45,523 nt of DNA. Origin: Sulfurimonas sp. Its GTDB lineage: Bacteria; Campylobacterota; Campylobacteria; Campylobacterales; Sulfurimonadaceae. The notes below the pieces were generated by a model. It did no database searches. It worked only from the letters and a program-made list of their open reading frames with translations, and was not told the DNA's origin. The position numbers were made by a program, and so were the translations under genes. Shown piece after piece: positions 35,117-45,396 of the stretch; the first letter of the stretch is position 1; each line of letters begins with the position of its first letter. Where the stretch lies: contig NZ_JALSKT010000058.1 of the NCBI RefSeq assembly GCF_026988655.1, positions 1 to 45,523 of the forward strand, read 5' to 3'.

Positions 35117-36775
35117 TTATCTAAGTTTATCTTTGATTAAATCACCTAAAGAGTGTGATTCATTATCATTAATTTCTTCAAGCATTTCTTGATTTTTAAT
35201 ATAATCTAATTTTTTAACAGATAAACGGATACGATCACGACGAGTATCAATGTTTGCAATAGCAGCTTCTATTGTCTGACCTACTTCTAACTCTTCTTTT
35301 ACTAAAGGAGTTAAATCTTCATCACGGATAAGTGCATCTACACCATCTTCTAAAGATACAAATACACCAAAATCTTTAATATCACGAATAGTACCAGTTA
35401 CAACAGAGTTCACTTTATGCGTTGTAGCAAATTTATCTATTGGAGACTCTAGTAATGTTTTACGATTAAGAGAGATTTTTTGATCTTCAGCATTAATTTT
35501 AGCAATTTTTACTTCAATCTCTTCACCAGATTTTAATACTTCTTTCGCTTTTGTATTTTTATCCCATGAAATATCTTGATTATGTAAAAGACCTTCAACA
35601 CCATCAATACGAACAAAAGCACCAAAATCAGTAAGTGAAGTGATTGTACCAGTTACAATGTCACCTTCATTATATTTCTTTAAAAACTCATCAAATGGTT
35701 TTGGAAGAAGTCTTTTTAATGAAACACGAAGCTTATGCGTTTTAGAGTTAATTTCTATAACTTCAACATCAATTTCTTGACCTACTTCTAAGTAATCATT
35801 TGGATTTTTTACATTTTTATTCCAAGTAATTTCTGAAATATGTAAGAAACCTTCAATGTCATTTCCAAGATCAACAAATGCACCATATGCTTCTACATTA
35901 GAAACAGTAACAGTAATTGTATCACCTTCATCTAATTCAGATTCAACTTCAGCCCATGGATCTGGTTGTACTGCTTTGATTGAAAGAGAAAGATGTCTTT
36001 TGTCTTTATCATAAGAGATAGCTTTAACAGTTACCACATCACCTTCATTGTAAAGTTTTGATGGGTTTACAGGACCTTTATAGCTAATCTCATTATAATG
36101 AACAAGACCATCTACACCACCCACATCTACAAACATACCATAACTAGTGATTTTTTTGATTGTACCTTCAACTATAACATCTTCAGCCATAAGTTGATCG
36201 ATGATTTCTTTTTTCTTTTTACGCTCTTCATTAAAAAGTTTACGACGAGAAAGAATGATTGAGTTCTCAACAGGGTCAATCTTTACAACTTGTGCTTTGA
36301 TTTTACGACCAACTACTTCATCAGTATCTTTAAACGCAGCTAATGAACGTGGCATAAAGAAAGAAACTGCATCAGCTTCTACTACATACCCACCACGATT
36401 TTTCTTAGTAATGATACCTTCAACTACTAAATCTTCATAATCGTCTTTATTCGCATCAATAAACTCAATAGTTTTTTCTTGTTCTAAAACTTTTTTGTAA
36501 GAAATCTTAGGACGCTCGTTATAGTATCCCATTTGCATTACTCTAATTTTATCACCAGTAGTAAACTTTAGTTCTCCATTTTCATCACGGATCTCATCAA
36601 GGCTTAGTATACCTTCTAGTTTATCACCAACACCTACTAACGCTCTGTTGTCTTCATCTTGTATCTCTACAATCTCACCCTCAACTATACGGCTTGTCTC
36701 TTGTTTTTTTTCGCTTTCTGCAAACATTTCTGCAAAATTTTCTTCTTCTTCAAATGATTCGTTATCGAACGCCAT
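35117..36775 (-). CDS. rpsA: 30S ribosomal protein S1
   Basis: 552 aa, close to E. coli S1 (557). Six S1 domains are recognisable by the repeated G-x-I/V-x-x-(I/L)-x-x-(Y/F)-G-x-F/M-V motif, for example GTIKKITSYGMFVDVGG, VSNVEAYGAFVDLGN, GTITSLTDFGAFVRIDG and GTIRDIKDFGVFVSLED. It binds mRNA and helps initiation at structured or weak ribosome sites. The N-terminus is very acidic (SFEEEENFAEMFAESEKK). It has its own promoter, with TATAAT 33 bases upstream. Confidence 0.97.
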   Translation of the reverse strand: MAFDNESFEEEENFAEMFAESEKKQETSRIVEGEIVEIQDEDNRALVGVGDKLEGILSLDEIRDENGELKFTTGDKIRVMQMGYYNERPKISYKKVLEQEKTIEFIDANKDDYEDLVVEGIITKKNRGGYVVEADAVSFFMPRSLAAFKDTDEVVGRKIKAQVVKIDPVENSIILSRRKLFNEERKKKKEIIDQLMAEDVIVEGTIKKITSYGMFVDVGGVDGLVHYNEISYKGPVNPSKLYNEGDVVTVKAISYDKDKRHLSLSIKAVQPDPWAEVESELDEGDTITVTVSNVEAYGAFVDLGNDIEGFLHISEITWNKNVKNPNDYLEVGQEIDVEVIEINSKTHKLRVSLKRLLPKPFDEFLKKYNEGDIVTGTITSLTDFGAFVRIDGVEGLLHNQDISWDKNTKAKEVLKSGEEIEVKIAKINAEDQKISLNRKTLLESPIDKFATTHKVNSVVTGTIRDIKDFGVFVSLEDGVDALIRDEDLTPLVKEELEVGQTIEAAIANIDTRRDRIRLSVKKLDYIKNQEMLEEINDNESHSLGDLIKDKLR

Positions 36776-43298: not shown

Positions 43299-44681
43299 TT
43301 ATTTTCCCTCTAAATATTTTTTAAAAAATTCTAATTGCTCTTTTGTACGGATAGAAGCTGTTCCACCTTGTGATTTTCTTGCATTCATAGAATTTTCAAG
43401 CACCAAAAAGTCTAAAACATCCTGAGAAATTCTAGCATCAATCTCTTGCAGGTGAGACAAATCTATATCACTTAAATCTATCCCTAGTTCTTCACTTTTT
43501 GCAACAGCTTTACCAGTAATGAAATGTGCTTCTCTAAAAGGAATATCACACTTTTCAACTAAATAATCAGCTAAATCCGTCGCACTTAAATGTCCTATCT
43601 TGCAAGCACTGTTCATATTTTTTGTTTTCACTTGCATTGTTTTGATTGCTTCTTTTAAAATCTCGAGTGAAAGCTCAGCTGTTTCTACAGCATCGAAGAC
43701 ACCTTCTTTATCTTCTTGTGTATCTTTATTATATGCTAAAGGAAGCCCTTTCATAACTGTTAAGAGTCCTATGAGAGAACCATAAACACGTCCTGTCTTA
43801 CCACGTAAAAGCTCTGGTACATCAGGATTTTTCTTTTGTGGCATAATTGAACTTCCTGTTGAGTATTCATCACTTAACTCTACAAAACCAAATTCATATG
43901 ATGACCACAGTACCAATTCTTCACTCAAACGGGAGATATGCATCATCATCGTTGAAATATTAAATAAAATCTCAAGTGCAAAATCTCTATCACTTACTGT
44001 ATCAAGACAGTTTACACTTACACTCTCAAAACCTAACAGTTTGGCAGAGTATTCTCTGTCAATATTATGAGGTGTTCCAGCAAGTGCAGCACAACCTAAA
44101 GGTGAAATATTATTACGTTCATATGAACTTTCAAACCTTTGGATATCACGTTTAAACATTGAAAGATACGCACCTAAATGAAACCCGAAATTTATCGGCT
44201 GAGCATGTTGTAGATGTGTCATCCCTGGTAATAATGTTTCAGTATGCTTATCGGCAACTACAACAATTTCTTTCATTAATTTTTTAATCAGTTCAACAAT
44301 TTCAAGGTTTTTACGTAAGGTATAACAACGAAAATCTACTGCTACCTGATCATTTCTACTTCTTGCAGTATGAAGTTTTTTCCCAGCATCACCTATGATA
44401 TCGGTTAATCTTTTCTCAATTGCCATATGCAAATCTTCATCTGATATTTTCCATTCAAATGCACCTGATTCAATTTCACTTTTGACTTGCATCAATCCTT
44501 CTTCGATGAGTTTAAATTCATCTTCTGTAAGAATTTGTTGTTTTGTTAACATTTTTGCATGCGCAAGAGAACCTTCAATATCTTCACGATAAAGTTTTCT
44601 ATCATACATAATTGAAGCGTTAAATTGGTCTAAGAGATTTGAAGCAGATGCCGAGAAACGGCCTGACCACATTTTTTCCAT
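43299..44681 (-). CDS. argH: Argininosuccinate lyase
   Basis: 460 aa, normal. [16 protein letters not shown] (about 276-291) is the fumarase/aspartase superfamily signature containing the catalytic Ser. [14 protein letters not shown] (about 102-115) and [13 protein letters not shown] (catalytic His region) are also present. It splits argininosuccinate into arginine and fumarate. Its promoter region is directly abutted by the MITE-like element, whose left end lies 25 bases before the ATG. Confidence 0.97.
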
Positions 44682-44705
44682 TATAGTTCCTTAAATTGTA
44701 TATAT

Positions 44706-44975
44706 TAGACTTCTTGCATAACCTAGATAGAGCTCAGCATTTTAGAGAGAGTTTTAATCAAGGCAGATGTTCTTCAGTGTAGCCGTAGCTACAGTGAAGG
44801 TTATCTAACGTAGAGTAAAGCTCTCTCTATAATGCCCAAAGGGAGAAGTAAAAAGCAGCAATCTAGCACAAAAAAATATTTTATCCTTAGCTATGGCTAG
44901 GCATAAAAATTTATTTTGCACTATCTCACTACTTTTTACTTTTCTGAGATATATCTAGGTTATGCAAGAAGTCTA
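44706..44975. mobile_element. MITE-like element with 24-bp perfect terminal inverted repeats
   Basis: The left end (44706-44729) and right end (44952-44975) are exact inverted copies beginning TAGACTTCTTGCATAACCTA. If the ends are taken as AGACTT (44707-44974, 268 bp), a 3-bp ATT duplication flanks it (44704-44706 and 44975-44977); a TA duplication with GACTT ends is also consistent. No ORF is inside. The interior folds into two long imperfect hairpins: arm 1 at 44737-44835 with a tip at 44772-44799, and arm 2 at 44844-44944 with a tip at 44879-44908. The whole makes a three-way junction. It fills the only gene-free stretch over 300 bases in the window (44682-45060). Its parent is probably an IS5- or IS630-like transposase elsewhere (inference). 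Confidence 0.8.
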
Positions 44976-45029
44976 TTATTAAAAAGTTTGATATTTTATC
45001 TAAAAAGGAGGATTTTACAAAATGAAGTA

Positions 45030-45060: not shown

Positions 45061-45396
45061 TTAGTTACAAGCAGGAACATTCCCACTATCTTTAGCATAT
45101 TCAATTAAAAACTGTTTTAAATGTCTTGATTTTTTAGCATATCTTTTACTTTTAAAATATTTCCAAGATTTTTTTGCTTTTTCATTATCTAAATGTATCT
45201 CAGCTAATAATTTCCCTTTTTTCTTCATAAGCCTTTTCCATTTTTTCATCTTGTAGTTTGCTATAAAGTTCTGCCCCTCTTTATGACACTTTAAGCATTT
45301 TTTAATAAAAATTCGTTGACCTTTATAGATAGCTGCATTTGATGATGTGAGTGAAAACACCGTCAAAGCCAATAAAATAAACAAAAATCTAGTCAT
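45061..45396 (-). CDS. Small periplasmic c-type cytochrome-like protein
   Basis: 111 aa with a signal peptide (about 1-21, ending SSNAA). C34-L-K-C37-H38 is a single heme c site. The rest is very basic (KMKKWKRLMKKKGK; KSWKYFKSKRYAKKSRHLK), and the last residues include another Cys (PACN). The distal ligand could be a Met in YKMKKWKRLM, but this is not certain. It could be an electron shuttle or a heme-bearing partner of an unseen oxidase or reductase. A strong AGAGGGG ribosome site and a TATAAT upstream suggest good expression. It is transcribed alone. Confidence 0.85.
   Translation of the reverse strand: MTRFLFILLALTVFSLTSSNAAIYKGQRIFIKKCLKCHKEGQNFIANYKMKKWKRLMKKKGKLLAEIHLDNEKAKKSWKYFKSKRYAKKSRHLKQFLIEYAKDSGNVPACN

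Follow-up and report, generated by a model that had tools for sequence, protein, structure and literature searches.

A MITE inserted at argH of Sulfurimonas and its structured, end-swapping core

The element upstream of argH in a contig of Sulfurimonas sp. (NZ_JALSKT010000058.1; the whole analysed stretch of 45,523 nucleotides is here called the window) is a MITE and as such ordinary in kind. The unusual part of it is the interior core, which is structured and swaps its ends. MITE interiors are usually taken as leftovers of the parent element. The reading that we favour here, and hold to be reasonably probable, is that of an IS5-mobilised MITE carrying a four-way-junction cassette that is independent of the transposase and was probably retained for its RNA fold.

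Results

The element and its insertion site

The MITE spans 268 bp (44707–44974) and is delimited by its terminal inverted repeats (TIRs), a target duplication, copies elsewhere and an empty site in relatives. Its core strand, on which hairpin A comes first, is the minus strand and is sense with argH. The TIR at 44707–44729 (plus strand), made up of AGACTTCTTGCATAACC and a further 6 bp, is matched perfectly over 23 bp by the opposite end at 44952–44974 (minus strand), and its 17-bp end is shared with IS5-type insertion sequences. A sequence-only reading had described perfect ends of 24 bp; they are exact but one base shorter, the extra base on each side belonging to the ATT target duplication that the same reading had thought possible and that is present at 44704–44706 on the argH side and at 44975–44977 on the promoter side. 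In agreement with the reported lack of coding capacity, no ORF of at least 60 aa was found inside the element. TIR-type termini with at most two mismatches occur at three sites in the window against 0.03 expected, the third, with two mismatches, being located at 35697.

The interior is not random, as had been proposed: the element folds at −122 kcal/mol, whereas 200 dinucleotide shuffles averaged −58 kcal/mol and none of them folded as well (z = −14 for one strand and −15 for the other). Of the cloverleaf-like shape suggested for it, the two long hairpins and the paired ends were recovered, while an additional small third hairpin makes the fold a four-way junction. The conserved structured core, CTCAG...CTGAG, comprises 216 bp at 44733–44948 (minus strand, as are its parts) and is recognized by a profile match at this locus, the consensus fold and covariation. 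Within it, hairpin A (44843–44944; covered by the model R1 match at 44833–44949) contains conserved U·G, tandem G·A and tandem G·U pairs, the mini-hairpin CCCTTTGGG is placed at the junction (44835–44843) by sequence, fold and consensus fold, and hairpin B follows at 44737–44834 by fold and consensus fold.

The downstream gene argH (43299–44681, minus strand, 460 aa) has matches in relatives at 78–89% identity, and its ribosome-binding site AAGGA can be read at 44688–44692 (minus strand), between the gene and the element. A search of 60 Sulfurimonas genomes found the gene in 55, and 30 of these, own genome included, contributed loci. Comparison of these upstream regions, which the sequence-only reading had called for, revealed the element in the own genome only and no core match at any of the 29 other loci. 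The further proposal that the insertion had displaced or supplied the argH promoter was rejected. The motif GATAAAATAnCAAACTTTTTA was found with at most five mismatches 13–38 nt 5' of the argH ATG in 25 of the 29 other loci, the four in which it was not found upstream of argH being L310, L317, L319 and L328. In the window it is exact and lies beyond the element, 298 nt from the ATG, and subtracting 271 nt for the element and one target duplication gives a spacing of 27 nt before insertion. A promoter scan puts TTGTAA-16-TAAAAT (44993–45020, minus strand), intact and by motif comparison conserved in relatives, at this motif, and a terminator-like site further upstream fits the placement. Since the conserved motif is intact on the far side, the point of entry lay between promoter and ribosome-binding site, the core strand of the element reading in sense. 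The 5'UTR of argH mRNA transcribed from this conserved promoter should thus, as judged from the sequence, include the folded cassette. The TATACA pointed out on the minus strand at 44697–44702 is indeed present, with the reservation that the ATG of argH follows it after about 15 nt.

Other features were seen around argH. The L311 locus has, by eye, a remnant of another, different insertion farther upstream, and a TIR-like match was found within 700 bp at the L322 locus. A small secreted cytochrome-like ORF with a CLKCH motif (45061–45396, minus strand) adjoins argH in the window and also accompanies the gene at most loci of the relatives.

Copies and partner insertion sequences

The own genome is a 1.97-Mb draft in 87 contigs, and searching it for further copies, as had been advised, gave 33 matches to the element, many of them to ends only, and seven dispersed full-model copies at E<1e-19. 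The copy on C41 is 96% identical to the argH element and has its own ATT duplication, and the 304-bp copy on C75 likewise has its own target duplication. An insertion sequence with the same ends had also been sought: at five contig ends of the own genome the 17-bp MITE end is joined to the start or the end of a transposase, a pattern that would be expected if an IS of roughly 0.9 kb, present in several copies, had been collapsed in a short-read assembly. Complete ISs with these 17-bp ends were found in relatives; they measure 896–907 bp and are flanked by ATT or AGT duplications. In one of them (L379) two ORFs match HTH_Tnp_4 and DDE_Tnp_4 (Pfam, 1e-14 and 4e-17). A domain search of the IS fragments of the own genome returned no transposase family; the C-terminal fragment resembles proteins of plasmid records annotated as IS5 family transposase. 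By their target duplication we take these ends, below called class I, to belong to the ISL2-like subgroup of the IS5 family. Further copies, target duplications, an IS sharing the ends and relatives in which the site is empty together bear out the identification as a non-autonomous mobile element. The idea that the core is part of the IS5-type IS was rejected, since in the end stretches compared the 896–907 bp ISs share little with the MITE beyond the 17-bp ends.

Within Sulfurimonas, 66 of 135 genomes had a match to covariance model R1, which was built on hairpin A alone. In Campylobacterales the matches numbered 106 of 398 genomes, spread over 30 of 87 genera, and in a phylum-wide sample 54 of 397, every one of the latter labelled as the own order or nearer. 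Named records with relatives of the element are from Sulfurimonas, some others being labelled Helicobacteraceae, Campylobacterales or Epsilonproteobacteria. A BLAST search of plasmids returned a single Sulfurovum record for the L242 copy and nothing for the copies of the window, L227 and L239; a BLAST search of phages gave none with element copies, and a pattern scan of viral contigs for the element found nothing.

Fold and covariation of the core

The fetched loci yielded 225 profile hits, of which 168 were full-length and 108 unique copies; with later fetches the set grew to 137 core rows, one of them spurious (L210_434, a second hit in locus L210, present in the tree). The fold was derived from 79 copies with pairwise similarity below 95%, drawn from 100 with both flanks. 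In their consensus a TIR stem leads into CTCAG/CTGAG and from there to hairpin A, the mini-hairpin and hairpin B, forming a four-way junction in which most pairs have changed on both sides. Among 75 diverse cores, with a median identity of 61% and a lowest of 46%, 22 column pairs covary (E < 0.05) beyond a tree-aware null in which alignments were simulated on the tree with the substitutions of each column placed randomly. Nineteen of these coincide exactly with one of the 81 predicted pairs, two are within one base and one is elsewhere. The sequence-only reading had held that a single conserved copy with compensatory changes would point to a structured RNA instead of a mobile element; the compensatory changes are there, but in a family that is also mobile.

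On the window, matches to Rfam release 15 all stayed far below threshold. The element shares with the structured RNAs of that collection a fold backed by covariation and differs from them in being without a match at threshold. The core thus constitutes a structured family without a match at threshold on the window. In the loci of six relatives only a tRNA and HPnc0260, a Helicobacter antisense RNA, exceeded threshold, both in L227. The latter match (L227:1403–1547, minus strand, 65.2 bits, threshold 59) lies half over the tRNA gene, while the rest overlaps, on the opposite strand, the edge of the element, and it was not seen at the five other loci. A kink-turn was considered and dropped, the loop being symmetric and without a 3-nt bulge.

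Ends and their exchange

Two copies in the same genome, on C61 and C42, have the same interior between other ends, GGGCACCTCTAAAAACCC (one base off at C42), and are flanked by 4-bp duplications. By their ends the 137 rows fall into 69 of class I, 66 of class II and two others (L213 and L241), which represent two further kinds; L202, counted in class I, has ends that differ by about five bases and may belong to another class. An exact 3-bp duplication of the form ANT was seen in 39 of 67 class I copies (AAT/ATT in 38 and ACT/AGT in one), and an exact 4-bp duplication, mostly TAAA and TTAA, in 31 of 58 class II copies, these counts omitting two class I and five class II copies with no recognised end on one side and three class II copies that were too short. 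The 389 fetched loci contained no complete IS bounded by class II ends.

On the core tree, a quick tree without bootstrap, end class changes six times against 47.5 in shuffles, so that ends are mostly, though not always, inherited with the core. The exceptions include L133, L156 and L196, which have class II ends within a class I core clade of 29 rows (SH-aLRT 100). The core of L133 shares 94.9% identity with two class I cores whose ends are unrelated to its own, and in the alignment of L156 with L117 identity begins at CTCAG and fades just past CTGAG. The same core is thus shown to ride on at least two well-sampled end classes and a few rarer ones, and to have moved between them. The exchange may have come about by entry of a core into a TIR-only palindrome or by a new arm taking the place of an old one and then being copied to the opposite end, and both routes would leave symmetric ends as seen. 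As the core keeps its fold while the ends and the target rule change, we infer that it is not the recognition site of one transposase.

Elements with other interiors or ends were also observed. L149 (C57:8850–9800 of the own genome, at about 230–560 of the locus) is a very diverged two-hairpin element with a weak R1 match of 41.6 bits, whose other, long ends TATAGCCATCCAAGAACAAACTAAGGC suggest a further end class. L295 and L296 (G137:C1 884263–884529 and 1258791–1259058), of about 267 bp, are bounded by class II ends and flanked by TTCA on either side; their GC-rich interiors look quite unlike the core and are perhaps another cassette within class II ends.

Shortened forms exist as well, both TIR-only palindromes of 46–67 bp and one-hairpin forms, most of them with target duplications. 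Perfect or near-perfect palindromes of 46–57 bp with target duplications, such as L284 (G000:C83:47673–47737), L280 (G000:C65:49566–49622), L285 and L286, are possibly deletion products of full elements or receivers of a core. L275, L289, L290 and L292 are reduced to a single hairpin or a fusion of half-hairpins; a single-hairpin form of 158 bp stands at two places of genome G111, and a fusion of half of each hairpin measures 167 bp. Given that core-less and one-hairpin forms have target duplications, insertion does not require the core, which can be lost, and its wide conservation therefore needs another reason.

Strand signals

Hairpin A retains non-Watson-Crick pairs in most of the 75 cores: U·G in 63, G·A in 53, A·G in 63, U·G in 70 and G·U in 67, the complete tandem G·A plus tandem G·U motif being present in just 40. 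On the opposite strand the conserved pairs would become C·A or C·T mismatches, and these one-strand G·A/G·U pairs, as read from the alignment, favour RNA and argue that the core strand is selected for its fold. Outside the conserved wobbles G·U and A·C mispairs are about equal in number (208 vs 196), with no excess of G·U. In ordinary pairs there is thus no preference for an RNA strand, which is unexpected for an RNA under strong selection and speaks against it.

Orientation was counted after removal of repeated and orthologous insertions, leaving 138 copies, six without a gene call; in a preceding count some gene calls rested on open frames, and distances to genes are unreliable. Between co-directional genes Sulfurimonas copies were 31 sense and 10 antisense (p = 0.0015). 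This bias was not repeated in other genera, with 14 sense and 13 antisense; for all genera the counts were 46 and 23. Divergent regions were preferred to convergent ones in Sulfurimonas (36 vs 5 copies) but not in the other genera (12 vs 10).

Discussion

The element shares with MITEs of the IS5 family its 17-bp ends, a 3-bp ANT duplication, the lack of an ORF, the many copies and a partner IS with DDE_Tnp_4. It differs from them in that its interior is not an IS remnant but a structured cassette common to other end classes. Stable transcript folds are described as a general trait among bacterial MITEs (PMC10969869, PMC2229807). The Correia/NEMIS elements of Neisseria are likewise short intergenic MITEs with hairpin-forming transcripts, which are reported as substrates of RNase III (PMC2229807, PMC2649163) and proposed to be under control via this enzyme (PMC2229807). 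They have TA at their termini and other TIRs (PMC2229807), in contrast to the ATT target and different TIR of the argH element. The CIR repeats of Caulobacter and Brucella resemble the core in a conserved RNA fold with two long arms, but these are joined by a linker and not by paired ends, contain a GANTC motif and occur in unrelated hosts (PMC2229807). QMITE1 and QMITE2 of Coxiella have a very stable predicted transcript fold and full as well as small versions (PMC5896051, PMC10969869); they differ in being described from one organism by single fold predictions, the main text of PMC5896051 being without the string 'covaria', and QMITE2 in its 7–9 bp duplications (PMC5896051, PMC10969869). In Thiomargarita a MITE is combined with a group I intron (PMC4853749). 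Neither this family nor a MITE core with tree-aware covariation or exchange of end classes turned up in searches of an open-licence library, outside which subscription journals mostly fall, and this does not establish absence from print.

In the favoured reading, an IS5-type transposase would move the MITE in trans by recognizing the 17-bp ends and duplicating a 3-bp ANT, as the anatomy indicates. Between the ends lies the four-way-junction cassette, which belongs to no single transposase and has been swapped among end classes. Insertion at argH between promoter and ribosome-binding site would then have placed the folded cassette in the argH 5'UTR. The cassette was probably kept because the folded RNA makes transcribed insertions tolerable or useful, possibly through compact folding, processing by a double-strand RNase or binding of a host protein. 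That a conserved core is passed among different ends suggests that the fold may have a job of its own. A further-reaching version, which we put forward as possible yet doubtful, would make the core a mobile functional RNA or folded-DNA cassette that acquires new ends by recombination at the junction stem, outlives any IS and is a Campylobacterales-wide satellite of several unrelated IS lineages, its junction with the tandem G·A/G·U pairs being read by a host factor and making 5' insertions tolerable.

The strongest rival is an ordinary MITE that spreads selfishly, its arms kept complementary by DNA-level template switching or arm-to-arm conversion without any RNA function. The equal G·U and A·C mispairs in variable pairs, the deletion derivatives with target duplications and the lack of an orientation bias outside Sulfurimonas agree with it, but arm conversion would erase the one-strand unpaired and non-Watson-Crick positions that are conserved across cores down to 46% identity, and the same core is kept with unrelated ends; we judge it rather unlikely, though still to be reckoned with. 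Conserved strand-specific mismatches would also be explained, as would the exchange of ends at the core boundary, if the core worked as single-stranded or cruciform DNA in which these mismatches are recognised, for example as an attC-like recombination substrate or a replication substrate. DNA hairpins likewise tolerate G·A and G·T pairs. Neither a recombinase nor a conserved crossover site was found, and this explanation appears improbable.

Two other explanations deserve far less credence. The core sits between TIRs in the copies read, as a subterminal binding site of the transposase would, but it is common to end classes with 3-bp and 4-bp target duplications and, as the comparison of end stretches revealed, is hardly shared with the class I ISs, which makes such a role very improbable. 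The position in the 5'UTR and the sense orientation could suggest a stationary cis-regulatory RNA of argH. As an ancestral leader this is already refuted by the 29 of 29 other argH loci without a core match, and the many copies elsewhere oppose it further, so that we give it next to no weight.

The insertion explains the leader of about 300 nt that, from the promoter position, would precede argH in the window strain. The interior of this MITE has an evolutionary history of its own, one conserved fold recurring between various ends across 30 of the 87 Campylobacterales genera sampled. The question of whether MITE interiors do anything thereby becomes testable, since natural elements with the same ends, with and without the core, can be compared.
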